Shown here one piece after another: positions 2,718-21,115 of a DNA stretch of 64,000 bases. The position numbers and the translations under genes are program-made. The notes beneath the pieces are model-generated. The model had not been told where the DNA came from and did not search any database. It saw nothing but the letters and a program-made list of their open reading frames with translations. Positions within the stretch are counted from its first letter, which is position 1; every line of letters begins with the position of its first letter. Source of the DNA: Streptomyces xiamenensis (lineage in GTDB: Bacteria; Actinomycetota; Actinomycetes; Streptomycetales; Streptomycetaceae); NCBI RefSeq assembly GCF_000993785.3, contig NZ_CP009922.3, positions 1,488,001-1,552,000 on the forward strand. The letters are read 5' to 3'.

Positions 2718-4374
2718 TGAACGACGCCGCCGCCGGCCTGCTGACCATCGCCGCGCTGGTGGCGCTGCTCGCCCTCGTCCACGTCCCGCTCGGCGACTAC
2801 CTGGCGCGCGTCTACACCGGCGAGCGGCACCTGGGCGTGGAGCGGCTGCTGTACCGGATCGCCCGCGTCGACCCGCGCGCCGACCAGCGGTGGACGGCGT
2901 ACGCGCTGTCGCTGCTCGCGTTCTCCGCCGTCTCCGCCCTGTTCCTGTACGCCTTTCTGCGGCTCCAGGGGGTGCTGCCGCTGGCGCAGGGGCACGCGGG
3001 GGTGCACCCCTCCGGCGCCTTCAACACCGCCCTCTCCTTCGTCAGCAACACCGACTGGCAGTGGTACGCGGGCGAGACGACGCTGGGGCCGCCGGCGCAG
3101 ATGGCGGGCCTGGCCGTGCAGAACTTCCTGTCGGCGGCCGTGGGCCTGGCCGTGGCGGTGGCGCTGATCCGGGGCTTCGCCCGCTCCCGCACCGACCGGC
3201 TCGGCAACTTCTGGGTGGACCTGGTCCGCGGCACGGTGCGGGTGCTGCTGCCGCTGGCGGTGCTCGCCGCGATCGTCATGGCGGCGGCCGGAGTGGTGCA
3301 GAACTTCCACGGAGTACGCGAGATCGTCACCCTGGGCGGGGACCGGCAGGCGCTGACCGGCGGCCCCGTCGCCTCCCAGGAGGCCATCAAGCTGCTGGGC
3401 GGCAACGGCGGCGGCTACTACAACGCCAACGCGGCGCACCCCTACGAGAACCCCAACCCGTTCACCAACTTCTTCCAGGTCTTCCTGCTCCTGCTGATCC
3501 CGTCCGCGCTGCCCCGCACCTTCGGGCGGATGACCGGCTCGCCCCGGCACGGCTGGGCGGTGCTGGCGGCGATGACCGCGCTGTGGGCGATCGGGCTCGC
3601 CGCCGTCACCACGGCCGAGGCGACGCACCACGGGGACGTGCCGCAGGCGGTGGGTGCGGCGACGGAGGGCAAGGAGTGGCGGTTCGGGGTGTGGAACAGC
3701 GCCCTGTACGCCAACGCCACGACCACCACCTCGACCGGGTCGGTGGACGCGGCGCACGAGAGCTTCACCCCGCTGGGCGGCGGGATGCTGCTGCTGAACA
3801 TGCTGCTGGGCGAGGTCGCGCCGGGCGGGGTGGGCGTGGGCCTGTACGGGATGCTGGTGCTGGCGATGCTGGCGGTGTTCCTGGCCGGGCTGATGGTGGG
3901 GCGGACTCCGGAGTACCTGGGGAAGAAACTGCGGCAGCGGGAGATCACGCTGCTGGCGCTGTACGTCCTGGCGATGCCGTTCGCGGTGCTGACGGGCACC
4001 GCCCTGGCGCTGGCGTTCCCCGAGCCGCGCGCCAGGATCCTGGCGGGCCCGCCGCACGGGCTGAGCGAGGTGCTGTACGCGTACGCCTCGGCCGGGAACG
4101 GCAACGGCAGCGCGTTCGCCGGGCTCGGCGCGGACACCACCTTCTACACCACCACCCTGGGGCTCGTGATGCTGATGGGCCGTTTTGTGCCGATGGTGCT
4201 GGTGCTGGCGCTGGCCGGGGCGCTCGCCGCCCAGCACCGCACCCCCACCGGGGCGGGCACCCTGCCCACCCACACCCCGCTGTTCACGGGACTGCTGGTC
4301 ACGGTGGCCGTGGTGGTGGCCGGGCTGACGTTCTTCCCGATGCTGGCCCTGGGCCCGCTGGCCGAGGGGCTGCG

Positions 4375-4378
<4 letters not shown>
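2717..4378 (+). CDS. kdpA: KdpA, potassium-binding channel-like subunit
   Basis: This 553-residue polytopic protein is the potassium-selective subunit of the KdpFABC P-type ATPase used for high-affinity uptake when potassium is scarce. Selectivity-filter loops of the four pseudo-repeats are visible: [10 protein letters not shown] near residue 105, [19 protein letters not shown] near 229, [16 protein letters not shown] near 334, and [12 protein letters not shown] near 460. Length and order match the family. The ATG at 2717 overlaps the kdpF stop, and its own stop overlaps the GTG of kdpB, so the subunits are made together. Confidence 0.97.
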
Positions 4379-6441
<2,063 letters not shown>

Positions 6442-6446
6442 GCGCC

Positions 6447-7019
6447 GTGGTCCTGTCGGTACTGCGCCAGGCCGCCGCGGGCCTGCGAGTCCTGCTGCTG
6501 ATGACCGTGCTGTGCGGGCTGGCCTACCCCGTGGTCATCTGGGGCGTCGCCCAGACCGCGTTCCACGACCAAGCCAACGGCTCCCTCGTGCACGCCGGGG
6601 GCCGCGTCGTCGGATCCTCCCTGATCGGCCAGGACTTCGGCGGCCCGCTGTGGTTCCATCCGCGCCCGGGCGGCTACGACCCGCTGGCCACCGGCGGCAG
6701 CAACCTCGGCCCCAGCAGCGCGCGGCTGCTCGCGGAGGTACGGCTGCGGCGGTCCTCGGTCGCGCGCACCGAGCACGTACCGGCGCACGAGGTGCCCCCG
6801 GACCCGCTGACCGGGTCGGCCAGCGGCCTGGATCCGCACATCTCCCCCGAGTACGCCCGCCAGCAGGTGACCCGGGTGGCCAGGGCACACGGACTGACGG
6901 AACAGCAGGTGCGCGAGCTGGTCGACTCCCACGTGCAGGGCCGCACCCTGGGCTTCCTGGGGCAGGAGCGGGTCAACGTCCTGCGGCTGAACCTGGCCCT
7001 GGCCGCGAAGGCCGGGTGA
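6447..7019 (+). CDS. kdpC: KdpC subunit
   Basis: This 190-residue protein has one N-terminal membrane helix (LRVLLLMTVLCGLAYPVVIW) and a periplasm-side domain with the family motifs GSSLIGQDF, WFHPRPGGYDP and SNLGPSS. KdpC holds KdpA and KdpB together and is required for transport. It starts five bases after the kdpB stop with GTG and is followed seven bases later by the KdpD-like gene, so it belongs to the same transcription unit. Confidence 0.95.
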   Translation: MVLSVLRQAAAGLRVLLLMTVLCGLAYPVVIWGVAQTAFHDQANGSLVHAGGRVVGSSLIGQDFGGPLWFHPRPGGYDPLATGGSNLGPSSARLLAEVRLRRSSVARTEHVPAHEVPPDPLTGSASGLDPHISPEYARQQVTRVARAHGLTEQQVRELVDSHVQGRTLGFLGQERVNVLRLNLALAAKAG

Positions 7020-7026
7020 GAGGGCG

Positions 7027-8127
7027 GTGTCCCGTGGCACGCTGCGCGTCTTCCTGGGGGCGGCCCCGGGGGTGGGCAAGACCTACGACATGCTGGCGGA
7101 CGGCAGACGGCGCGCCGCGCTCGGCGGCGACGTGGTCATCGGCTTCATGGAGGACCACGGCCGCGAACCCACCCGCAGGATGGCCGAGGGGCTGGAGACC
7201 GTCCCCCGCAGGGAGATGACCTACCGGGGCGCGCGGTTCACCGAGATGGACCTGGACGCGGTGCTGGCGCGCCACCCCGAGGTGGCGCTGGTGGACGAGC
7301 TGGCCCACACCAACGTCCCCGGCAGCCGCAACGCCAAGCGGTGGCAGGACATCGACGAACTCCTGCGGGCCGGCGTCCATGTGGTGTCCACCGTCAACAT
7401 CCAGCATCTGGAGTCCCTGAACGAGGTGGTGGAGAACATCACCGGGGTCGTCCAGCGCGAGACCGTACCGGACGAGGTGGTGCGCCGGGCGGACCAGATC
7501 GAGCTGGTGGACCTGTCGGCGCAGGCCCTGCGCCGCCGCATGGAGTACGGCGACATCTATCCGCGGCACAAGGTCGCCGACGCGCTCACCCACTACTTCC
7601 GGGAGGGCAATCTGACCGCGCTGCGCGAACTGGCCCTGCTGTGGGTGGCGGACCGGGTGGAGGAGGCGTTGCAGCGGTACCGGGGCGAGCAGGGCATCCA
7701 GACGCCGTGGGCGACGCGCGAGCGCGTGGTGGTGGCGCTGTCCGGCGGCGCCGAGGGCACCACCTTGATCCGCCGGGGCAACCGCATCGCCCAGCGCGGG
7801 GCGGGCGGCGAACTGCTGGCGATCCACGTCCGGCGGGACGACGGGCTGCGCGAGGCTCCCAGCGAGACCATCGCCCGGCAGCGGGCGCTGGTGGAACGCC
7901 TGGGCGGCACCTTCGAGCTGGTGACGAGCGACGATCCGGCGGCGGCGGTCCTGGAGTTCGCCCGTGGGGTGAACGCCACCCAACTGGTGATCGGTGCCAG
8001 CCGCCGGGGCCGGGTGAAGTCCCTGCTGGCGGGCAAGGGCGTGGGCACCTCGATCGTGGAGGGCTCGGGCGACTACCTCGACGTGTACATCGTCACCCAC
8101 GAGGAGGCGGCCCACGGCCGGCTGTAG
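7027..8127 (+). CDS. KdpD N-terminal sensor half without histidine kinase
   Basis: The 366-residue product matches only the cytoplasmic N-terminus of KdpD. It has the KdpD domain with Walker A GAAPGVGKT (about residues 11-19), the VDELAHTNVPGSRN block near 90 and the HYFREGNLTALRELALLW segment, then a universal-stress-protein-like domain from about residue 235 (VVVALSGGAEG to VIGASRRGRVKSLLAG). The four membrane helices and the HisKA/HATPase domains of full KdpD (about 850-900 residues) are absent, and no kdpE follows. The stop is clean, and the next DNA encodes another protein on the opposite strand. Stand-alone KdpD N-terminal proteins are known in a few bacteria such as cyanobacteria. Its effector here is unknown. 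Confidence 0.92.
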   Translation: MSRGTLRVFLGAAPGVGKTYDMLADGRRRAALGGDVVIGFMEDHGREPTRRMAEGLETVPRREMTYRGARFTEMDLDAVLARHPEVALVDELAHTNVPGSRNAKRWQDIDELLRAGVHVVSTVNIQHLESLNEVVENITGVVQRETVPDEVVRRADQIELVDLSAQALRRRMEYGDIYPRHKVADALTHYFREGNLTALRELALLWVADRVEEALQRYRGEQGIQTPWATRERVVVALSGGAEGTTLIRRGNRIAQRGAGGELLAIHVRRDDGLREAPSETIARQRALVERLGGTFELVTSDDPAAAVLEFARGVNATQLVIGASRRGRVKSLLAGKGVGTSIVEGSGDYLDVYIVTHEEAAHGRL

Positions 8128-8145
8128 CGGGCCAGCGGTGCGGTG

Positions 8146-8439
8146 TCAGTGGGCCCGGACGCGGGTGGGCCACTGCTGGGTGCGGTCGCCGCCGTAGCAC
8201 TGGTCGCAGGGTTCGAGCACGGCGCGGTCGAAGACGCCGCTGTGTATGTAGCGGTAGGACAGGCCGGTCGAGCCGTCGCAGCCTGGGGTGCGGCAGGGCT
8301 GCGCGGTGGCGAAGGCGAAGCCGCCGTCCGGGGCGACGATGGCCACCTGCTCACAGGTGAGGCACGGGAAGCAGTACACGCCGCCCCGGGTGGTGATGGC
8401 GGACATCCCCTGGGGGGCGTTGCAGCCGGGGCATTCCAC
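8146..8439 (-). CDS. small zinc-ribbon-like hypothetical protein
   Basis: The predicted 97-residue protein is rich in paired cysteines: CPGC at residues 3-6, CFPCLTC in the middle, CRTPGC, and CDQC near the C-terminus. Two or more zinc-binding sites are likely. A GTG start at 8439 retains the first pair; a start at the internal ATG (MSAITTRGG) would lose it. It is convergent with the KdpD-like gene, 18 bases apart. I do not recognise the family. The regular cysteine pairing argues that it is a real gene. Confidence 0.65.
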   Translation of the reverse strand: MECPGCNAPQGMSAITTRGGVYCFPCLTCEQVAIVAPDGGFAFATAQPCRTPGCDGSTGLSYRYIHSGVFDRAVLEPCDQCYGGDRTQQWPTRVRAH

Positions 8440-12424: not shown

Positions 12425-12479
12425 GAACCCGCCCGGCCGGCCCTGTGGTGTGAAGTCCCCCCGCCGGCCGGGCGGGTTC
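12425..12479 (+). terminator. 16-bp stem hairpin after the MFS gene
   Basis: Perfect inverted arms at 12425-12440 and 12464-12479 (GAACCCGCCCGGCCGG and its complement) begin seven bases after the MFS stop and enclose a 23-base loop. This ends the regulator-MFS unit. Confidence 0.75.
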
Positions 12480-12542
12480 GCTCAGCGGTCGGACATCACC
12501 GTGGCTCGCGGATTCCCGGTGGAATTCACTACGTTGCGGCCC

Positions 12543-13532
12543 ATGGAGACCACCCCGAGCAAAACGTTCCGGTCCCTCGACCTCGGCGCCGGGGACGACG
12601 GCCGCTGGGCCGCCCTGATACGCGAGACCTACCCGCCCTCCGTGGTCGCCGACTGGCTGACCGCCGAGGGCCGCACCGACGCGGGTGCGCTTGCCGCCCG
12701 CCGGCTGTTCGCGACCCACCTGCCGGAGCTGCTGCCGTCCCTGCGCCGGCTGACCGCCCAGCTGGAGGACATCCCGCACGCCGGGACGTTTCTCACCCTG
12801 GCCGCCGTCCGCCCCTTCTGGTCCGGCTGCACCCAGATCGGCAGCGGCGGTGAACTCCTGCGCACCTACGACTTCGCGCCGGACGGCGTCGAGGGCACCT
12901 TCGTCCGCTCACACCTGCTGCGCCCCGTCATCGGTACCCAGGAGGGCGGCTGGGGCCTGCTGGACGGGATGAACGACGCCGGTCTCGCCATCTCCCTCAC
13001 CTTCGGCGGGCGCAAGGTCCACGGGCCGGGCTTCGCGGTGGTGCTGGTGATCCGCTGGCTGCTGGAGACCTGTACGTCCGTGGACCAGGCGCTCACACGG
13101 CTGCGCACCGTCCCCGTCCGCATCCCGCAGAACCTCACCCTGGTGGACGCCACCCGCTCCGTCACCGTGTATCTCGGCCCGGACATCCCCATGACCGAGG
13201 CCCCCGACGCCTGCGCCGCCAACCATCAGTCCGAGACGGTGCCGAAGGAGGCGGAGGAGGCACAGCGGGCGCGGCACAGCCGGGAACGGCTGGCCGTCCT
13301 GCGCGCCGCGGGGCCCGATGTGGCGGCCCTGCTGCGCCCGCCGCTGCACAAGGACGGACACGCGCAGGGGTTCGGCACCGTCTACAGCGCCCACTACCGC
13401 CCGGCGGAGGGCGTCGTCACCTACCACTGGCCGGACGCCGACAGCTGGCGGCTGTCGTTCGGCTCCTTCACCGAGGAGACCAGGACGGTGCGCCTGGGCA
13501 GGCCCCGACCGGCACCGGCACGGCGCACCTGA
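12543..13532 (+). CDS. C45-family (acyl-CoA:6-APA acyltransferase-like) Ntn-hydrolase
   Basis: The 329-residue protein resembles the C45 peptidase/acyltransferase family, whose members cleave themselves to expose a catalytic N-terminal cysteine. The candidate is Cys96 in WSGCTQIGSGG. Downstream family-like features are GMNDAGLAISLTFGG and the NHQ segment (CAANHQSE). No penicillin gene is nearby, and most bacterial relatives are amidases or acyltransferases of unknown substrate. There is no signal peptide. The ATG at 12543 is chosen; upstream sequence forms the preceding terminator. Confidence 0.8.
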   Translation: METTPSKTFRSLDLGAGDDGRWAALIRETYPPSVVADWLTAEGRTDAGALAARRLFATHLPELLPSLRRLTAQLEDIPHAGTFLTLAAVRPFWSGCTQIGSGGELLRTYDFAPDGVEGTFVRSHLLRPVIGTQEGGWGLLDGMNDAGLAISLTFGGRKVHGPGFAVVLVIRWLLETCTSVDQALTRLRTVPVRIPQNLTLVDATRSVTVYLGPDIPMTEAPDACAANHQSETVPKEAEEAQRARHSRERLAVLRAAGPDVAALLRPPLHKDGHAQGFGTVYSAHYRPAEGVVTYHWPDADSWRLSFGSFTEETRTVRLGRPRPAPARRT

Positions 13533-13644: not shown

Positions 13645-14325
13645 TCACGCCGGGCCGCCGCCCGGGTGCCACGGGGTGCCATAGCGCTCCGCCAGGCTGG
13701 TGGCCTCCGCGTCGGTGAGCAGCCGGGGGGTGCGGCCGTTCAGCAGGAGGAGGAGGTGGGCGGTCTCCTCCAGCTCTATAGCTGCGTCGGCCGCCGCCGC
13801 CATCGTGGTGCCCGAGGTGACCGGGCCGTGGTTCTGGAGCAGCGCCGCCCGGAACGGGAAGTCCAGCTCGCGCAGGAGCACGGCCTGCGGCACATCGCCG
13901 GGCTCCGCGTACGGCAGCAGCGGGGTCTGCCCGACCCGCATCACGAAGTACGGGGTCAGCGGCGGCACCGCGCTCCGGTCCGACCAGGGCGGCAGGCACG
14001 AGTACGCGGCGGCGTGCGCGCTGTGCAGGTGCACCACCGCCGTCGCCTCCGGGTCGCGCTGGTAGAGCGCCAGGTGCAGCGGGAACTCCTTGGAGGGCCG
14101 CGGCCCTTCCAGCAGTGCCCGCTCCAGTGGGGTGTCCACCGGGGCGCCGGCGTCCAGGACGGCCAGGCCCTCGGGGTCCAGCGCGTCCAGCCGGGCACCG
14201 GTCGGGGTGATGTAGATGCGGTCGCCGATCCGGACGCTCAGATTGCCCGAGGCGCCCGGGCTCAGCCCGGCGGCGGTGAGCTCACGCCCCGCCGCGACGA
14301 GTTCGTGGCGTGCGTCGCTGCTCAT
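13645..14325 (-). CDS. class II aldolase/decarboxylase, OtnC-like
   Basis: The 226-residue protein is a class II (zinc) aldolase-family member. It has a substrate phosphate-type loop GASGNLSVR, the zinc-binding HLHS pair near residue 97, and a third histidine in NHG near 155. In sugar-acid pathways this family (OtnC) decarboxylates 3-oxo-tetronate 4-phosphate to dihydroxyacetone phosphate. The kinase gene just upstream makes that role likely here. The ATG at 14325 is used. A TTG at 14364 would add 13 residues and overlap the kinase stop by eight bases. Confidence 0.88.
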   Translation of the reverse strand: MSSDARHELVAAGRELTAAGLSPGASGNLSVRIGDRIYITPTGARLDALDPEGLAVLDAGAPVDTPLERALLEGPRPSKEFPLHLALYQRDPEATAVVHLHSAHAAAYSCLPPWSDRSAVPPLTPYFVMRVGQTPLLPYAEPGDVPQAVLLRELDFPFRAALLQNHGPVTSGTTMAAAADAAIELEETAHLLLLLNGRTPRLLTDAEATSLAERYGTPWHPGGGPA

Positions 14326-14356
14326 ATCCGGTTCCAGCTCCCGTTCGGTCCGTGTG

Positions 14357-15631
14357 TTACGCAAGGGCCTGCCAGCCCGCCGTGAAGATGTCGCGGTGGC
14401 CGAAGTTGCCCGACTTCAGGGCGAGGTTGTACGCGCGGCCGTCGGCCGCCGTGCCGTGGGCCCACGAGACGCCGGGCGCCAGCGACGGGCCCAGCTCCAG
14501 GCGCTGTACGTCCAGTGCCTGCACCACGCTGCCCGAGGTCTCGCCGCCGGCCACCAGGAACTGCCGGGCGCCGGCCTCGGCGAAGGCGGTGGCGCAGCCG
14601 GCCAGCGCCTCCTCCATGACCTCGGAGGCCGGACGTTCGCCCGCGGGCGGTGCCTTCTCCAGGTCGTCGAGGGAGTCCACCGCATACACCAGCACCGGCT
14701 CGCCGGGGGCCCGGCTCCAGCGCTCGCGCGCCCAGGCGGTCAGCCGGGCGACCTCGCCGGGCAGGTCGGCCCGCAGCGCGGCCAGGTCCAGCTTGTGGTG
14801 CGCCAGCTGCTCGCGGGCGTCGGCGATCTGGCCGCGGGTCGCGGAGGAGGCGCTGCCGGCCAGGACCGCGCGGTGTCCCGCCGTCACCGGCATCGCGTCG
14901 GTGGCGGGGGCGTCCGCCACCGCGGGCAGTCCCAGCGCGAGGCCCGAGCCGCCGGTCACCAGCGGGTCCCCGGAGGTGACCTCGGCGATGATCGCGAGGT
15001 CGCTCTCGTCCAGGGCGTCGACGACCACGTAGGTGCCTTCCGCCGCGTCGATCGCCGCCCGCAGGGCCGCCGCTCCGGCGCGGACCGTCTGGAGCGGCAC
15101 GGTCGCCACCCGGTGGGTGGTCTGCGGGCGCAGCAGCGCGGCCACGTCCGAATCGGTCATCGGGGTCAGCGGGTGGTGCCGCATCGAGCTCTCGCTCAGC
15201 AGCTGCCCGCCGACGAACAGATGCCCCTGGTAGACCGTGCGCCCGGTGGCGGGGAAGGACGGCACCACGACCACCTTGTCCGCGCCGAGCTCCGCCGCCA
15301 GCGCGTCGGCCACCGGGCCGATGTTGCCGGCCGGGGTGGAGTCGAAGGTGGAGCAGTACTTGTCGTAGAAGCGCTCGCAGCCCAGCCGCCGCAGGGCATC
15401 GAGCGCCGCCACGGACTGCCGTACCGCGTCCGCCACCGGGGCGGTCCGCGTCTTCAGCGCGACCACCACCGCGTCCATCCCGGCGACCCGCAGATCCGCG
15501 AGCTGCTCGTCGCTGGGGACACCCAGGGTCACGCTGGTGCGCAGTCCCCGGGCGACCCAGTTGGTGGCGAGGTCGGTAGCACCGGTGAAGTCATCGGCCA
15601 CGCCGCCCCATCTGACCTGTCCTGCCGCCAT
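14357..15631 (-). CDS. DUF1537 four-carbon sugar-acid kinase, OtnK-like
   Basis: This 424-residue protein belongs to the DUF1537 kinase family. The N-terminal domain begins WGGVADDFTGATDLATNW, with the diagnostic DDFTGA motif. The C-terminal nucleotide-binding region contains VAGGETSGSVVQAL. These enzymes phosphorylate 3-oxo-tetronate, D-threonate, D-erythronate or apionate-derived acids. Pairing with a class II aldolase favours a 3-oxo-tetronate or related acid. It is divergent from the dehydrogenase gene at 15828 with a 196-bp control region between. Confidence 0.92.
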   Translation of the reverse strand: MAAGQVRWGGVADDFTGATDLATNWVARGLRTSVTLGVPSDEQLADLRVAGMDAVVVALKTRTAPVADAVRQSVAALDALRRLGCERFYDKYCSTFDSTPAGNIGPVADALAAELGADKVVVVPSFPATGRTVYQGHLFVGGQLLSESSMRHHPLTPMTDSDVAALLRPQTTHRVATVPLQTVRAGAAALRAAIDAAEGTYVVVDALDESDLAIIAEVTSGDPLVTGGSGLALGLPAVADAPATDAMPVTAGHRAVLAGSASSATRGQIADAREQLAHHKLDLAALRADLPGEVARLTAWARERWSRAPGEPVLVYAVDSLDDLEKAPPAGERPASEVMEEALAGCATAFAEAGARQFLVAGGETSGSVVQALDVQRLELGPSLAPGVSWAHGTAADGRAYNLALKSGNFGHRDIFTAGWQALA

Positions 15632-15722
15632 GCGTCGTCACCGTCCGTTACGCCGTTCCTACGTATCCAGGCGAGAGGCGCGTGATGCTCCCGCGCCAAT
15701 CTGTGAATTTATGGTACTACAG

Positions 15723-15750
15723 TTGACGCTCATGTTAATTGGCGTTACGT
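15723..15750 (+). promoter_or_regulatory. promoter and inverted repeat before the dehydrogenase-permease genes
   Basis: TTGACG (15723-15728) and TTACGT (15745-15750) are spaced by 16 bases as -35 and -10 elements. An imperfect inverted repeat, TGACGC (15724-15729) with GCGTTA (15742-15747), overlaps both boxes and is a candidate site for the DeoR-type regulator encoded at 18796. The surrounding sequence (about 15695-15760) is unusually AT-rich for the window. Confidence 0.4.
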
Positions 15751-15827
15751 TCGCGCTGCATAGGCGGGTTCACCCGATTCACCCGCCGACGCAGCACACG
15801 CAGCAGCACCAGCGCCAGGAGGGCACC

Positions 15828-17237
15828 ATGAACGCCGAGCCGCACGGGACGCGGGAAACCGTCACGTACGCACTGACGGGCGCGCGCGGCGGCTTCGCCC
15901 GTACGCTGCTGGCCCAGACCCGGTTCACCCCGGACGTCGAGCCGGCCGTACTGTGCGACCTCGACACCGAAGGGGTACTGGCGCTCGCCGCCGAGCTGGG
16001 CTTCCCCGCCGAGGGACCCGGCTCCCTCACCGTCGCCACCGACCGGGCCGGCATCGAGGCCGCCCGCGCCGCGGGACGCACCGCCGTGATCGCGGACATC
16101 TCCCTGCTGGCCGGCGCCGCCTACGACATCCTTGTCGAGGCCACCGGCAGCCCGGCCGTGGGGTACCGCGCCGCGCGCACCGCGCTCACCGGCGGCCACC
16201 ACGTGGCGATGGTCAGCAAGGAGGTCGACTCCGTCAGCGGCATCGAACTCGCCTCCCTCGCCGCCGACAGCGGTCTCGTCTACACCACCGCCACCGGCGA
16301 CCAGCCCGCCAACCTCATCCAGCTCTTCACCTGGGCCCACGGCCTGGGCCTGGAGATCGTCGCCATCGGCAAGTCCGGCGAGTACGACCTCGTCTTCGAC
16401 CCCGAGCGCGGCACCGTCACCCAGCTCGACGAGACCATCGACGCCCCGGCCCTCGGCGGCCTGCTGAAGCTGGACCGGGAGAGCCCCGAAGGCGTCCGCA
16501 CCACCCTGGCCGCCCGCGCCGAGGCCGTCGCCGGCCTCAAGCGCAGCGCCGCCGCCGACTACTGCGAGATGTCCGTCGTCGCCACGAGCACCGGCTTCAC
16601 CCCCGATGTCGAGGCGATGCACTACCCGGTGGCCCGTACCGCCGAACTCGCCGACGTCTACGCCTTGCGCGAGCACGGCGGCGTCGTCACCCGTCCTGGT
16701 GTCGTGGACGTCTTCAGCGTGCTGCGGCTGCCCGAGGAAGCCAGCTTCGCCGGCGGCGTGTTCGTCGTGGTCCGCACCCACGACACCGTCACCTGGGAGC
16801 TGCTGCGGCAGAAGGGACACGTCGTCAGCCGCGACGGCCGCTACGCCTGCGTCTACCTCCCCTACCACCTGATGGGCGTCGAGACCCCGACCACCCTGCG
16901 CGACGCCGTGCTGCGCGGCATCCCCGCCGGCTCACCCTCCCCCGCCCAGCACGCCGTACTCGCCGGGCGCGCCACCGAGGACCTGAGCGCCGGCACCGTG
17001 CTGACCATGGGCGGCCACCACCACGAGGTGACAGGTGTGGCGCCGGTGCTGCTGGCCGCCGCCGACGCCCCGGCCGACACCGCGCCGCTGTACCTGGCCG
17101 CGCACGCCACCCTCGTACGGGACGTGGCGGCCGGTTCGCTGCTCACCCTCGACGACGTGAGCGGCTACGACCCCGACCTGCTCGCCGCCTGGAACGCCGG
17201 GCGCGACGCGTACCCCACCGCCCCCACCACCCCCTGA
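15828..17237 (+). CDS. homoserine-dehydrogenase-like oxidoreductase with C-terminal SAF domain
   Basis: The 469-residue protein has an N-terminal NAD(P)-binding fold (YALTGARGGFARTLL, then VEATGSPAVGYRAARTAL) like homoserine dehydrogenase. A central region contains GKSGEYDLVFDP. A C-terminal SAF domain runs from about residue 380 (LAGRATEDLSAGTVLTMGG to VAAGSLLTLDDV), as in sialic acid synthase and altronate dehydratase. Its location suggests that it oxidises the sugar acid before phosphorylation, replacing the LtnD/DenD dehydrogenases of characterised pathways. That is inference. The ATG at 15828 follows an AGGAGGG site. Confidence 0.85.
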   Translation: MNAEPHGTRETVTYALTGARGGFARTLLAQTRFTPDVEPAVLCDLDTEGVLALAAELGFPAEGPGSLTVATDRAGIEAARAAGRTAVIADISLLAGAAYDILVEATGSPAVGYRAARTALTGGHHVAMVSKEVDSVSGIELASLAADSGLVYTTATGDQPANLIQLFTWAHGLGLEIVAIGKSGEYDLVFDPERGTVTQLDETIDAPALGGLLKLDRESPEGVRTTLAARAEAVAGLKRSAAADYCEMSVVATSTGFTPDVEAMHYPVARTAELADVYALREHGGVVTRPGVVDVFSVLRLPEEASFAGGVFVVVRTHDTVTWELLRQKGHVVSRDGRYACVYLPYHLMGVETPTTLRDAVLRGIPAGSPSPAQHAVLAGRATEDLSAGTVLTMGGHHHEVTGVAPVLLAAADAPADTAPLYLAAHATLVRDVAAGSLLTLDDVSGYDPDLLAAWNAGRDAYPTAPTTP

Positions 17238-17303
17238 CTCCCCCACGCTCTCCCCTCCCCAGGACGGCCGCAGTGACGCGGCCATGAAACAAAGAGGTTC
17301 GCC

Positions 17304-18707
17304 ATGTCCGACGCCTACACGCTCTTCGCGTTCGGCGCGGCGATCGCGGCGCTGGTGCTGCTGATCGCCAAGTTCAAGGTCCACCCGGTGGCCACCTTGT
17401 TCATCATCGTCACCTCGCTGGGCCTGGTGCTCGGCATGGGCGGTGCCAAGACGATCGAGCTGGTCACCACCGGCTTCGGCAACACCCTGGCCAGTGTGGG
17501 TCTGCTGGTCATCTTCGGCTGTGTGCTGGGGAAGATGCTGGAGCTGAGCGGCGCGGCACTGCGGATCACCAAGGCGGCGCTGAGCCTGTTCTCGGGCAAG
17601 AAGGTGCCGTGGGCCGTCGCGCTGGCCTCGACGGTCGTCGGTATCCCGCTGATCGCCGACACCGTCGTGCTGATGCTGATCCCGGTGGTCTCGGCCATCG
17701 CGTACCAGTCGAAGATGTCGATGATGCGGCTGGGCCCGATCCTGTACATCGGCGCCTACGTGATGACCTCGCTGGTGCCGCCGGGCCCCGGCCCGCTGGC
17801 CGCCACCTCGCTGCTGGGCGTGGACCTGGGTGAGGCGACGCTGTGGGGCCTGGTCGTGGCCATCCCCGGCATCATCGTCGCCACGATCTACCTGCTGACC
17901 ATCAAGACGCACGTCGACCCCAAGCCGGAGTTCACCGACCACCTCGCGGGCGCCGGTGCGGCCGCGGGTGACGGCGGCGGCAAGCCCCGTCTTTCCCTGG
18001 GCGGTTCCGGTACCGACGCGGACGGCGAGACCGAGCGCGAACTGCCCCCGCTGTGGATGTCGCTGGTCCCGATCTTCCTGCCGATCGTGCTGATCATGTC
18101 CAGCTCGTTCGTGGTCGACCTGTTCGAGGCGGACAACGCCGTCGGCGGGGTGCTGGCCTTCCTCGGTGAGCCGGTCATAGCCCTGTTCATCGGCTGTCTG
18201 GCCGCGCTGCCGCTGTTCGGCCGCCGCTGGTCGAGCAAGGAGACCCTGAACGACCTGTTCGAGGCCGGTCTGAAGCTGGCCGCCATGCCGCTCGCCCTCA
18301 CCGGTGTCGGCGGCGCGCTGGCCACCATCATCCGGGACACCGAAGTGGCGGACTCCGTCGCCGAGATGATCCAGGACTGGGGCCTGTCCCCCATCATCGT
18401 GCCGTTCCTGGTGGCCGCGGCCATCTGCACCATCACCGGTTCGAATATCCTCGGCGTGATGACCGCCGCGGCGATCATGGAACCGCTCGCCGAGGGCCTG
18501 GGCATCTCCGCGCTCGCCATCTACTTGGCGTGCGGCACCGGAGCGCAGATCATGAAGCACGCCAACTCCTCGGGCTTCTGGGTCACCACCACCCTGTCCA
18601 ACATGACGGTCGGCCAGGGCATCCGCTCCATCGGGGTGGCCTCGGCCCTGTCCGGGGTGACCGGCTTCGCGATCGTGTACGCCCTGTACGGATTCGGCGT
18701 CATCTGA
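17304..18707 (+). CDS. GntP-family gluconate/sugar-acid:proton symporter
   Basis: This 467-residue permease has about 12-14 hydrophobic segments. GntP-type motifs include the opening FAFGAAIAALVLLIAKFKV, SLVPPGPGPLAATSLLGVDLG in the middle, and HANSSGFWVTTTLSNM near the C-terminus. The family imports gluconate, threonate and similar acids, so it probably supplies the substrate for the adjacent dehydrogenase and kinase. It starts 66 bases after the dehydrogenase stop behind an AAAGAGG site and is probably co-transcribed with it. Confidence 0.93.
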   Translation: MSDAYTLFAFGAAIAALVLLIAKFKVHPVATLFIIVTSLGLVLGMGGAKTIELVTTGFGNTLASVGLLVIFGCVLGKMLELSGAALRITKAALSLFSGKKVPWAVALASTVVGIPLIADTVVLMLIPVVSAIAYQSKMSMMRLGPILYIGAYVMTSLVPPGPGPLAATSLLGVDLGEATLWGLVVAIPGIIVATIYLLTIKTHVDPKPEFTDHLAGAGAAAGDGGGKPRLSLGGSGTDADGETERELPPLWMSLVPIFLPIVLIMSSSFVVDLFEADNAVGGVLAFLGEPVIALFIGCLAALPLFGRRWSSKETLNDLFEAGLKLAAMPLALTGVGGALATIIRDTEVADSVAEMIQDWGLSPIIVPFLVAAAICTITGSNILGVMTAAAIMEPLAEGLGISALAIYLACGTGAQIMKHANSSGFWVTTTLSNMTVGQGIRSIGVASALSGVTGFAIVYALYGFGVI

Positions 18708-18725
18708 CCCATCCGGCGACGGCCC

Positions 18726-18747
18726 GGCCGGCAGACCTCTGCCGGCC
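18726..18747 (+). terminator. hairpin after the permease gene
   Basis: GGCCGGCAGA and its complement (18726-18735, 18738-18747) form a tight hairpin just past the gntP-like stop. It may only attenuate readthrough into the DeoR gene, which lies 49 bases further on. Confidence 0.5.
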
Positions 18748-18795
18748 GGCCGGGCCGGTCCACGGAAAGACCGACAGGCACAAGGAGGCACCACG

Positions 18796-19608
18796 GTGTC
18801 GTCAGAAGGGTCTCCCGGCTCCGCGGACACCCCGCTGATCCCGGATCAGCGCCGGGAGCTGCTGATCAAGCTGCTGCGCGGGCACTCGGTGCTCAGCGTG
18901 CACCAGCTGACCGAGCTGCTCGGGGTCTCCCACATGACGGTACGGCGCGACATCGCCGCGCTGGAGCGACAGGGGCGCGCCGTGTCGGTGCCCGGCGGGG
19001 TACGCATCGCCGGGCAGCTGCATCATGAGCCGAGCTTCATCGACAAGTCGACCATGGACCAGCCGGCGAAGCTCGCCATCGCCGCCCGCGCCGGGGAACT
19101 CCTCCAGGACGGCACCACCGTGTACCTGGACGCCGGCACCACCTGTCAGGCCCTGGTCCCGCACATCGTGCGGCGCCAGGGCATGACGGTGGTGACCAAC
19201 GACTTCACCACGGCCAACGCCCTGATGGGCAACCCGGACGTGGAGGTCATCCACACCGGTGGCCGCATAGAGCACGCCAACCGCTCCACCGTGGGGCGGC
19301 TCGCCGCGCAGACGCTGACGCAGCTGGCGCTGGACATCGCCTTCGTCTCCACCAGTTCGTGGGACCTGCAGCGCGGGGTGACCACGCCGTCCTCCGCGAA
19401 GGTGGAGGTCAAGCAGGCGGCGATGGCGAGCGCCTCGCGGTCGGTGCTGCTGACCGGGTCCGCCAAGTACGGCACCTTCGGCATGTACCGGGTGGCGGCG
19501 CTGAGCGAGTTCGAGTCGATCGTGACGGACGAGGGCCTGTCGCCCGCGGCACGCGAGACGCTGCGTGCCCAGGGCATCGCCACGTTCGTGGCCACCGCTA
19601 CAGAGTGA
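18796..19608 (+). CDS. DeoR-family transcriptional regulator
   Basis: The 270-residue protein has a DeoR helix-turn-helix at about residues 15-70 (RRELLIKLLRGHSVLSVHQL, then GVSHMTVRRDIAALERQGRA). The sugar-phosphate sensor domain contains YLDAGTTCQALVP and VVTNDFTTANAL. Such proteins usually repress sugar catabolic genes and release DNA on binding a phosphorylated intermediate. It begins with GTG behind AAGGAGG at 18782-18788 and probably controls the sugar-acid genes on both sides. Confidence 0.93.
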   Translation: MSSEGSPGSADTPLIPDQRRELLIKLLRGHSVLSVHQLTELLGVSHMTVRRDIAALERQGRAVSVPGGVRIAGQLHHEPSFIDKSTMDQPAKLAIAARAGELLQDGTTVYLDAGTTCQALVPHIVRRQGMTVVTNDFTTANALMGNPDVEVIHTGGRIEHANRSTVGRLAAQTLTQLALDIAFVSTSSWDLQRGVTTPSSAKVEVKQAAMASASRSVLLTGSAKYGTFGMYRVAALSEFESIVTDEGLSPAARETLRAQGIATFVATATE

Positions 19609-19675: not shown

Positions 19676-21115
19676 ATGGGGATTGTCGCCGGTCTGGACA
19701 GCTCGTCCGTTTACACCCGCATCGTGGTCTGTGACACCGATACGGGCCAGGTGGTACGGCACGGCCACGCCGACCACCCGAAGGAAGAAGCCACCCCCGA
19801 GGCGTGGCTGCACTCCCTGGGGGAGGCAGCCGGCGGCGGCGTCCTGGAGGACGTCGCCGCGATCGGGGTCGCCGCGCAGCCGCACGCCGTGGTCGCGCTG
19901 GACGAGAGCGGAGCGCCGGTACGGGCCGCCTCCCCGGGGGTGGGCGGCGAGGACCGCGCCCGCACGGCCGCGCTCGACGCCGCGGCCCGGGAACTGACCG
20001 ACGCGCTCGGCGGCCCCGACACCTGGACCCGCGCGGTGGGCTCCGTACCCCAGGGCGGACAGCCGGTGGCCCGGCTGCGCCGGCTCGCGCGCGAACACCC
20101 CGAGGCGGCGCGGCGGGTCGCCGGGGTGGCGCTCGCCCAGGACTGGCTCGTGTGGCAACTGCTGGGCCGTCCGGCACGCATGGCCACCGACCGGGGCGGG
20201 GCCTCCAGCACCGGCTACTGGTCGCCGGTGGGCGGTGAGTGGCGGCCCGAACTCGTCGAACTCGCCCTGGGACACGCGGTCGCGCTGCCCGAGGTCCTCG
20301 CCCCCGCCCAGCCGGCCGGGCGCACCCCGGAGGGCCAGCTGATCTCGGCGGGCACGGGCGAGACGATGGCGGCGGCCTTCGGGCTCGGCGTGGGCCCCGG
20401 CGACGCGGTGCTCTCCCTCGGCGCCTCCGGCTCGGTCTGCGCCGTCCACCACGCGGCGCTGCCGCCCGACAGCAGCGGCGCGGTCACCGCGTACGCGGAC
20501 GCCACGGGCCATCACCTGCCGGTGGTCCGCACCCTCAACGCGGTACGGGTGCTGCGCGGCACCGCGGAACTGCTCGGCTGCGACCTGCCCGCACTCTCCG
20601 ACCTCGCGCTGCGCTCGACGCCGGGCGCCCACGGGCTGGTCTTCCTGCCGTACCTGGCGGGCGAGCGGGTGCCCGCTCTCCCGCACGCGGCGGGCACCCT
20701 GACCGGCCTGCGCCGGGAGAGCATGAAGCCCGAACACCTGGCCCGGGCGGCGTTCGAGGGGATGCTGTGCGGCCTGGCGGACGCGGCGGACGTGCTGCGC
20801 GAACGCGGCGTACGGATCGACCGGTTCTTCCTGCTGGGCGCGGCGGCGGACCTGCCGGCGGTGCGGGAACTCGCCCCCGCGCTGCTCGGCGCCCCGGTGG
20901 TGATCCCCGCCCCGGCCGCCTATACCGCGCTGGGTGCGGCCCGCCAGGCGGCCTGGGCCCTGGGGGTCGAACAGGGCCGGCTGACCCCGGACACCCCGCC
21001 GAAGTGGCCCGAGCAGGACGGGGAGACCTACCACCCGGGCGATGACCTGCCCACGGGGAAGGCCATCCGCCAGCAGTACGGGGCGGTCCGGGACACCACT
21101 CACCCGCAGGGGTGA
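19676..21115 (+). CDS. FGGY-family carbohydrate kinase, xylulokinase-like
   Basis: This 479-residue ASKHA-fold kinase opens with IVAGLDSSSVYTRIVVCD, the phosphate-1 loop. Its second-domain motifs are VLSLGASGSVCAV and FLPYLAGERVPALP, as in xylulokinases. The exact substrate is uncertain. It lies 67 bases after the DeoR gene and is convergent with the sigma-factor gene. Co-location with the DUF1537 kinase means the island carries two kinases of unrelated fold, so it may handle two substrates or two steps. Confidence 0.9.
   Translation: MGIVAGLDSSSVYTRIVVCDTDTGQVVRHGHADHPKEEATPEAWLHSLGEAAGGGVLEDVAAIGVAAQPHAVVALDESGAPVRAASPGVGGEDRARTAALDAAARELTDALGGPDTWTRAVGSVPQGGQPVARLRRLAREHPEAARRVAGVALAQDWLVWQLLGRPARMATDRGGASSTGYWSPVGGEWRPELVELALGHAVALPEVLAPAQPAGRTPEGQLISAGTGETMAAAFGLGVGPGDAVLSLGASGSVCAVHHAALPPDSSGAVTAYADATGHHLPVVRTLNAVRVLRGTAELLGCDLPALSDLALRSTPGAHGLVFLPYLAGERVPALPHAAGTLTGLRRESMKPEHLARAAFEGMLCGLADAADVLRERGVRIDRFFLLGAAADLPAVRELAPALLGAPVVIPAPAAYTALGAARQAAWALGVEQGRLTPDTPPKWPEQDGETYHPGDDLPTGKAIRQQYGAVRDTTHPQG

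Follow-up and report, generated by a model that had tools for sequence, protein, structure and literature searches.

The gene cluster at positions 13645–19608 of the window analyzed here, a stretch of 64,000 nucleotides covering positions 1488001–1552000 of the single 5.96 Mb contig of the Streptomyces xiamenensis genome, encodes a DXR-II-like oxidoreductase (DRL) together with the kinase OtnK, an OtnC-like decarboxylase, a GntP-family permease and a DeoR-family regulator. We think it fairly probable that this cluster is a three-enzyme tetronate pathway in which DRL oxidizes a tetronate directly to 3-oxo-tetronate; the substrate, the product, the oxidation at C3, the cofactor and the regulation are what we infer here. 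The cluster is probably a new variant of the known tetronate pathway and probably provides a function for the "DLO2" proteins, relatives of DXR-II. If this is true, a branch of the DXR-II superfamily which is publicly labeled homoserine dehydrogenase, FlgA or SAF would obtain a substrate class and a pathway, and tetronate catabolism would be shortened from four enzymes to three by chemistry other than that of the known bypass. It would also be a warning that not every member of the family PF21135 is an isoprenoid enzyme.

DRL clusters lack the OtnI isomerase

In the known pathway, as outlined in the part of PMC12540250 used here, LtnD yields 2-oxo-tetronate, OtnI shifts the carbonyl to C3 and the kinase 3-OtnK phosphorylates the resulting 3-oxo-tetronate. 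The genes ygbI–ygbN of Escherichia coli K-12 encode a DeoR-family regulator, LtnD (YgbJ), OtnK, OtnC, OtnI (YgbM) and a GntP-family permease; a gene list of the Brucella tetronate cluster is found in the consulted part of PMC10580937. Compared with the E. coli ygbIJKLMN cluster and with the Ralstonia- and Brucella-type clusters, the window has kept OtnK, an OtnC of the Aldolase_II type, the GntP permease and a YgbI-like DeoR regulator, but it lacks YgbJ (LtnD) and YgbM (OtnI) and has one DRL instead. A preliminary description made from the sequence had placed OtnK- and OtnC-like enzymes, a GntP permease and a DeoR regulator around an unusual dehydrogenase standing in place of LtnD or DenD, and had remarked that OtnI is missing. 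All of these genes are indeed there, and the absences hold up as well. No LtnD (NF043037, NAD_binding_2/11 type) is present among the cluster genes and none was reported genome-wide at E ≤ 1e-60, with 20 of the 34 candidate places scored; OtnI (NF043033) is found neither in the cluster nor, at E ≤ 1e-40, in the genome, where there is one weak match (E 2.1e-4).

A sample of 392 Streptomyces genomes, 66 of which have an OtnK over the cut-off, gave 68 OtnK loci. DRL is present in 21 of them, none with an OtnI-like gene. LtnD is present in 25, of which 24 have OtnI; in the remaining one (L152) the contig breaks off before any OtnI would come into view, and this locus was counted as one without OtnI. 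Ten loci have an Iso_dh-type dehydrogenase (nine with an OtnI-like TIM barrel) and six a 2-Hacid_dh dehydrogenase (all six with OtnI). Thus, an OtnI-like isomerase occurs at 0 of 21 DRL loci versus 39 of 41 loci with LtnD, 2-Hacid_dh or Iso_dh (Fisher 1.4e-14, on rows that are not independent). Here "OtnI-like" takes in the TIM barrels of Iso_dh clusters, proteins that are part of the training rows of the isomerase hidden Markov model (HMM), and an action at C2 is assumed for the Iso_dh and 2-Hacid_dh dehydrogenases from their families. This comparison leaves out L165 and L182, which have OtnI and a dehydrogenase of unidentified type, L088, L175 and L176, which have a DeoC-type aldolase, and L089 with a protein of the 3-hydroxyacyl-CoA dehydrogenase (3HCDH) family. 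A search with the isomerase HMM agrees with the tabulation of the neighborhoods. Locus L178 begins at a contig end, which hides one of its flanks, and L180 makes up an entire contig of 6,391 bases; no OtnI over the cut-off was found in the genomes of these two loci (G731 and G745).

A class sample of 394 genomes with 33 OtnK loci gave a similar picture: 13 loci have DRL and none of these has OtnI in the cluster, one of them (L118) belonging to a divergent, racemase-linked branch. Among the other loci six have OtnI, L119 is of the Iso_dh type without OtnI, ten are of the DeoC type, L130 and L131 are without a recognized dehydrogenase and L111 is cut by a contig end. Both samples overlap, as identical DRL proteins are found in L116 and L009, L113 and L022, L115 and L019, and L117 and L020, and the counts are therefore not additive. 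An earlier pooled set of loci gave OtnI in 0 of 17 versus 12 of 13 (Fisher 1.5e-7; p 0.14 on a few hand-made genus groups).

On the level of whole genomes, OtnI over the cut-off is found in none of 32 genomes with DRL clusters, and 12 of these, including that of the window, have no match at E ≤ 1e-40. Six of 101 Streptomyces genomes encode a PF21135 protein; in the five whose DRL is OtnK-linked, no match to OtnI or LtnD reaches E ≤ 1e-60, and the PF21135 protein of the sixth (G035) is divergent and has no OtnK nearby. Weak matches to the OtnI HMM occur at some DRL loci, namely L123 (59.5 bits, approximately 4 kb off the cluster) and L017, L032, L030 and L107 (below 27 bits). A match of 200 bits at the DRL locus L027 lies 4.5 kb off together with an LtnD-like gene, an arrangement which we take to be hydroxypyruvate isomerase and tartronate semialdehyde reductase. 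At L176, which is of the DeoC type, there is a match of 100.7 bits approximately 4 kb off.

DRL, OtnK and OtnC recur together and the exchange is repeated

In the co-occurrence search that the preliminary description had proposed, the window protein retrieved 30 loci, and in 28 of them OtnK and OtnC adjoin DRL, with varying gene order and transporters. These loci are from Streptomyces, Nocardiopsis, Streptomonospora, Glycomyces, Kocuria, Arthrobacter, Microbacteriaceae and Amycolatopsis; the two loci without OtnK and OtnC are from alphaproteobacteria (L037 and L038). On plasmids the trio is present in eight of the 12 loci opened among 40 hits listed, of 104 matching records, and the carriers are two Comamonadaceae, Klebsiella, Paracoccus, Alloyangia, Palleronia, Ancylobacter and Agrobacterium. 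The combination thus ranges over Actinomycetota and alpha-, beta- and gammaproteobacteria, and because the trio recurs in many genera the cluster is more than a chance arrangement. Within the open-licence PMC literature (titles and the starts of abstracts) we found no report of a DRL or DXR-II-like protein in tetronate catabolism.

The conjugative Klebsiella plasmid L100 carries, between insertion sequences (2790–8332), a ygb-type operon in the order OtnK–OtnC–DeoR–GntP–DRL, with LtnD and OtnI absent. Its OtnK (545.6 bits) and OtnC (300.2 bits) both score above the cut-offs, and the kinase is 52% identical to E. coli YgbK. Megablast against 5,426 E. coli genomes gave nothing close to the operon, and for its DRL gene it found no second plasmid record; an OtnK search of plasmid records gave 1159 matches. 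Together, the Streptomyces clusters and this ygb-like operon with the equal exchange make our proposal directly testable.

In a quickly built tree of 62 selected OtnK rows, with support from the Shimodaira–Hasegawa-like approximate likelihood ratio test only, the label DRL requires seven changes, at least five of them on starred branches. When DRL, including the racemase-linked branch, is set against OtnI alone, five changes are needed. The kinase of L100, the Klebsiella plasmid, falls together with E. coli YgbK (99, starred), and the DRL-linked kinases of Comamonadaceae group with Streptomyces kinases that have LtnD and OtnI (97, starred). In independent pairs DRL and OtnI go in opposite directions in three to four of five and the same way in none. 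From the kinase tree we conclude that the exchange between DRL and the pair of dehydrogenase and isomerase occurred more than once.

The four opened plasmid loci without OtnK and OtnC are L099, L105, L104 and L107. In L099 (1089–8317) and L105 (2831–8347) DRL adjoins PdxA and a tripartite tricarboxylate transporter, in L099 also an IlvD/Edd dehydratase; perhaps DRL has another substrate or takes part in another route there. As some members of the clade have no OtnK nearby, the DRL family may have more than one substrate.

DRL is a relative of DXR-II

The preliminary description called the central protein homoserine-dehydrogenase-like with a SAF domain, and this has to be revised in part. The only Pfam family over the cut-off is PF21135, "Oxidoreductase DRL, catalytic domain" (Table 1), whereas both the homoserine dehydrogenase NAD-binding match (16.1 bits, cut-off 24) and the SAF match (PF08666, 15.1 bits, cut-off 21) are sub-threshold; the SAF part stands by fold kinship, and the divergent relative in L118 passes with 31.8 bits. 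The closest solved protein is DXR-II of Brucella abortus (3upl, 3upy; phmmer 1.1e-29, profile versus 3upl E 2.5e-54). A structure predicted from the window protein and those of related loci (mean predicted local distance difference test 92.4, predicted template modeling score 0.90) superposes over its full length with 3upl (Z 37.1, root-mean-square deviation 2.5 Å, 396 residues aligned, 25% identity), as compared to Z values of ∼16 for DXR-I and homoserine dehydrogenases. Homoserine dehydrogenase thus has a related fold and, in 3mtj, shares a lysine with DRL, but the Pfam match is only sub-threshold and the conserved neighbors of DRL are sugar-acid genes. We conclude that DRL belongs to the DXR-II-like fold family and is not a plain relative of homoserine dehydrogenase. 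The public labels of the DRL proteins of L097, L102 and L101 and of similar plasmid records ("homoserine dehydrogenase", "flagellar biosynthesis protein FlgA" and "SAF domain-containing protein") are likely mislabels.

Within the family, a tree of 85 proteins, from which ten rows (fragments and near copies) were omitted and for which the program warns of long branches, places the OtnK-linked DRLs and their near kin (51 rows) on one side of a branch with 100/99 support, apart from 3upl and the proteins of L142–L144. The nearest protein to the window DRL is that of Streptomyces harbinensis (89% identity), which is also the DRL of G553. In the alignment the window protein retains the equivalents of Lys191, Glu232 and Tyr322 of DXR-II, but Lys193 is replaced by Gly184, Thr229 by Asp244 and Arg320 by Leu. 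According to the consulted part of PMC3847144, Thr229, Lys191 and Lys193 anchor fosmidomycin in DXR-II, so that two of the three anchors (K193 and T229) are replaced in the DRL clade. Lys182, Glu247 and His347 are common to the window clade and four DXR-II rows. All 43 OtnK-linked rows, which include near-identical ones, have in common Lys131, Gln159, the motif Lys182-Ser-x-Glu-Tyr (KSxEY), Asp244, Lys329, His331 and His397–399. In contrast, all 32 rows of DXR-II and other PF21135 proteins have V, A or L at the place of Lys131, Glu at that of Gln159, T or S at that of Asp244, and KGKNN instead of KSxEY. Lys131 aligns with the lysine of homoserine dehydrogenase 3mtj, presumably that of the TANK motif, and judged from this alignment it may act as the base that deprotonates the hydroxyl being oxidized.

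Two uncharacterized sister families of DXR-II, DLO1 and DLO2, are described in PMC3847144 (Carretero-Paulet 2013), and in the part of the paper used here no function is assigned to them. The DLO2 hosts named there include Nocardiopsis, Arthrobacter and Streptomyces, genera in which we find OtnK-linked DRL, and DLO2 position 229 is given as Pro, Ser or Ala. At column 243, which neighbors the equivalent of position 229, 39 of the OtnK-linked rows carry Ala and four carry Pro. Because the host list includes these genera, and from the classes at position 229, the window DRL probably belongs to the DLO2 clade, an assignment made by description.

It is extremely improbable that DRL is a true DXR-II for isoprenoid synthesis which is located in this cluster by chance. 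Pfam family and fold would agree with it, but the S. xiamenensis genome already encodes DXR-I (368.7 bits, cut-off 315.7), the DRL clade is split from DXR-II as described above, residues of DXR-II are replaced, and four tested DLO1 and DLO2 proteins did not complement a dxr mutant, as stated in the same part of PMC3847144. As DXR-I is present and the DXR-II residues are absent we rejected this role, and the window DRL probably has no part in isoprenoid synthesis.

On Sinorhizobium and Aminobacter plasmids (L143: 3950–8576, L144: 3947–8573) DXR-II-like genes stand directly before genes for thiamine pyrophosphate-dependent E1 alpha and beta and for E2 of the acetoin-dehydrogenase type. These DXR-II-like proteins are 64 and 69% identical to 3upl over ∼192 residues, and the gene order is a hint that DXR-II-like chemistry may also serve catabolism.

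Proposed pathway and alternatives

We suggest the following pathway. The GntP permease would import a tetronate, namely L-threonate, D-erythronate or an isomer, and DRL would convert it with NAD(P)+ to 3-oxo-tetronate, the hydride most likely being taken from C3. This one step would equal the two steps of LtnD or DenD and OtnI. OtnK would then phosphorylate C4, the OtnC-like enzyme would decarboxylate 3-oxo-tetronate 4-phosphate to dihydroxyacetone phosphate, and the YgbI-like DeoR protein would repress the two divergent operons. Threonate, erythronate, apionate or an undescribed acid had been considered as substrates in the preliminary description. A four-carbon sugar acid agrees with the cluster, but apionate as source of the kinase substrate is unlikely and was rejected, because the kinase scores far below the cut-off of the model for OiaK, the 3-oxo-isoapionate kinase (NF042436, 117.4 bits, cut-off 700), and is recognized as 3-oxo-tetronate kinase. 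In four DRL loci (L025, L026, L027 and L126) an Amidohydro_2 gene, lactonase-like, adjoins DRL or is one gene away; the protein of L026 is nearest to the L-fucono-lactonase model (85.7 bits, cut-off 400). Such a neighbor would agree with a pathway that starts from a lactone or an acid.

As OtnI is missing and one enzyme has to supply the kinase substrate, either C3 is oxidized directly or an oxidation is combined with an isomerization. A hint comes from the Streptomyces locus L089 (5137–9176), the only one of its kind among the 68 loci, in which OtnK, OtnC and a DeoR protein 61% identical to that of the window are accompanied by a 3HCDH-family protein and no isomerase. Lambda-crystallin, an L-gulonate 3-dehydrogenase, is another member of the 3HCDH family, and by analogy this replacement suggests direct dehydrogenation at C3. 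The combined reaction would make DRL a bifunctional enzyme with a single active site for two reactions, an oxidation of C2 like that by LtnD and the subsequent transfer of the carbonyl to C3, again with 3-oxo-tetronate as product. This would account for the loss of both LtnD and OtnI, the closest solved relative is a reductoisomerase, the required enediol chemistry is related to reductoisomerization by DXR, and Lys182, Glu247 and His347 are shared with DXR-II rows. On the other hand, the fosmidomycin anchors K193 and T229 are replaced (PMC3847144) and the 3HCDH protein of L089 speaks for a simple 3-dehydrogenation, so that we regard an oxidative isomerase as rather unlikely. A wider form of this idea, that the DLO2 proteins are widespread oxidative sugar-acid isomerases which use DXR-type chemistry in catabolic direction on an unphosphorylated tetronate and have repeatedly replaced the pair of dehydrogenase and isomerase, appears to us a little more doubtful still.

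In another scheme DRL would be a 2-dehydrogenase and OtnK and OtnC would act on the 2-oxo-tetronate. A three-step L-threonate bypass of this kind, with 2-OtnK and 2-OtnC, is described for Arthrobacter in the part of PMC12540250 used here, and like the window it has no OtnI. The bypass differs in keeping LtnD and in using an OtnC of the F_bP_aldolase type, Aldolase_II being the mark of the 3-oxo route (PMC12540250); the OtnC of the window is of the Aldolase_II type, and the OtnK of the window passes the cut-off for 3-oxo-tetronate kinases. This two-oxo route is therefore improbable. Even less probable, in our view, is a reverse reductoisomerase that would use a branched sugar acid such as a 2-C-hydroxymethyl acid and give OtnK a linear oxo acid. 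Such a reaction would be the formal reverse of that of DXR-II and the fold would suit it, but K193 and T229 are lost, the kinase is far from the OiaK type expected for apionate, and by chemical reasoning the reverse retro-aldol would yield a 2-oxo and not a 3-oxo product.

Several points weigh against direct oxidation to 3-oxo-tetronate and the pathway built on it. NF043034 is by far the best family of the OtnC-like protein, which stays with 200.6 bits under the equivalog cut-off of 250. Two Iso_dh-type loci, L174 and L119, are without OtnI as well, and the missing isomerase is therefore not proof. A weaker protein of the OtnI family is encoded elsewhere in 20 of the 32 genomes with DRL clusters, in G962 as part of a second OtnK locus. 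The test on the independent pairs gives p 0.125, five pairs being too few to reach significance. The residue signature is also present in five clade members without OtnK nearby (L037, L038, L099, L104 and L105, two of them with PdxA); it marks the clade rather than proving a tetronate pathway. A preference for NAD, considered because of Asp44, was dropped as this residue occurs in many relatives and does not separate the clades. The 3HCDH protein of L089 passes no NCBIfam cut-off; its best solved relatives include 3-hydroxybutyryl-CoA dehydrogenases (3mog, 2e-51), and lambda-crystallin (3ado, 2.3e-33) is more distant and well down the list. The assignment of the oxidation to C3 rests on the missing isomerase and on this single locus.

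Gene organization and promoter region

The cluster consists of two divergent operons which point outward from a gap of 196 bases (Table 1). The minus-strand operon contains the OtnC-like gene and OtnK, the plus-strand operon DRL, the GntP permease and the DeoR regulator. For the OtnC-like gene a TTG start is listed and an ATG at 14325 is equally likely; DRL starts with ATG and has AGGAGG upstream. The closest solved sequences to the OtnC-like protein are 6voq and 6vop, both named "Aldolase" (E 1.6e-37 and 3.4e-37). OtnK is 41% identical to E. coli YgbK. The permease scores 259.2 bits on TIGR00791 (cut-off 292.75), and the regulator, 43% identical to E. coli YgbI, scores 251 bits on the YgbI model and does not reach its cut-off of 400.

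Table 1. Features of the tetronate-type cluster in the window
Feature	Position	Strand	Evidence
OtnC-like class II aldolase-family decarboxylase	13645..14364	-	PF00596, 146 bits
OtnK, 3-oxo-tetronate kinase (DUF1537: PF07005 and PF17042)	14357..15631	-	NF043035, 458.8 bits, cut-off 350 passed
Conserved block of the divergent promoter region, candidate DeoR operator/promoter	15700..15754		alignment of the window and seven relatives
DRL, DXR-II-like NAD(P)-dependent oxidoreductase, proposed tetronate dehydrogenase	15828..17237	+	PF21135, 98.9 bits
GntP-family permease, proposed sugar-acid uptake	17304..18707	+	PF02447, 289 bits
DeoR-family repressor, YgbI-like	18796..19608	+	DeoRC, 158 bits

The conserved block between the operons contains TGTGAAT at 15702–15708. 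On either strand this motif is found in 19 of 34 upstream regions, as compared to a mean of 1.07 (maximum 5) in 200 dinucleotide shuffles; many of the regions are from close relatives and the shuffles ignore relatedness. Comamonadaceae and Microbacteriaceae are among the regions with the motif; almost every Nocardiopsis-type region lacks it, and so do L033, L036, L093, L095 and L096. TGTGAA repeats lie by OtnK in L089, L130 and L131, which carry related DeoR proteins. As the motif is missing from several regions and the shuffles do not allow for relatedness, TGTGAAT is a candidate operator only.

Directly 3′ of the DeoR gene an FGGY-family kinase is encoded (19676–21115; xylulokinase model 246.7 bits, cut-off 380). 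It was rejected as a member of the cluster, because among the tested loci (the 30 relatives and the opened plasmid loci) only the nearest relative, L009, has one. The same holds for a C45-family autoproteolytic acyltransferase (12450–13532; NF040521, 102.7 bits, cut-off 85), whose gene is oriented toward that of the OtnC-like protein and which was found among the 30 related loci only in L009. A second, weak DUF1537 kinase-like match of 44.7 bits is located elsewhere in the genome (C1: 2746993–2747691).

Other OtnK–OtnC clusters, in L127–L129, L132, L134–L139, L088, L175 and L176, contain a DeoC/LacD-type aldolase and in several cases a racemase, and the queries used recognized no dehydrogenase in them. 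A divergent branch of DRL, ∼30% identical to that of the window, is found with an Asp/Glu-racemase-family protein, OtnK and OtnC in L106 (6968–10993), L108 (6707–10738) and L118 (6047–11114). The Asp/Glu-racemase family also accompanies the Iso_dh and 2-Hacid_dh types of OtnK clusters.

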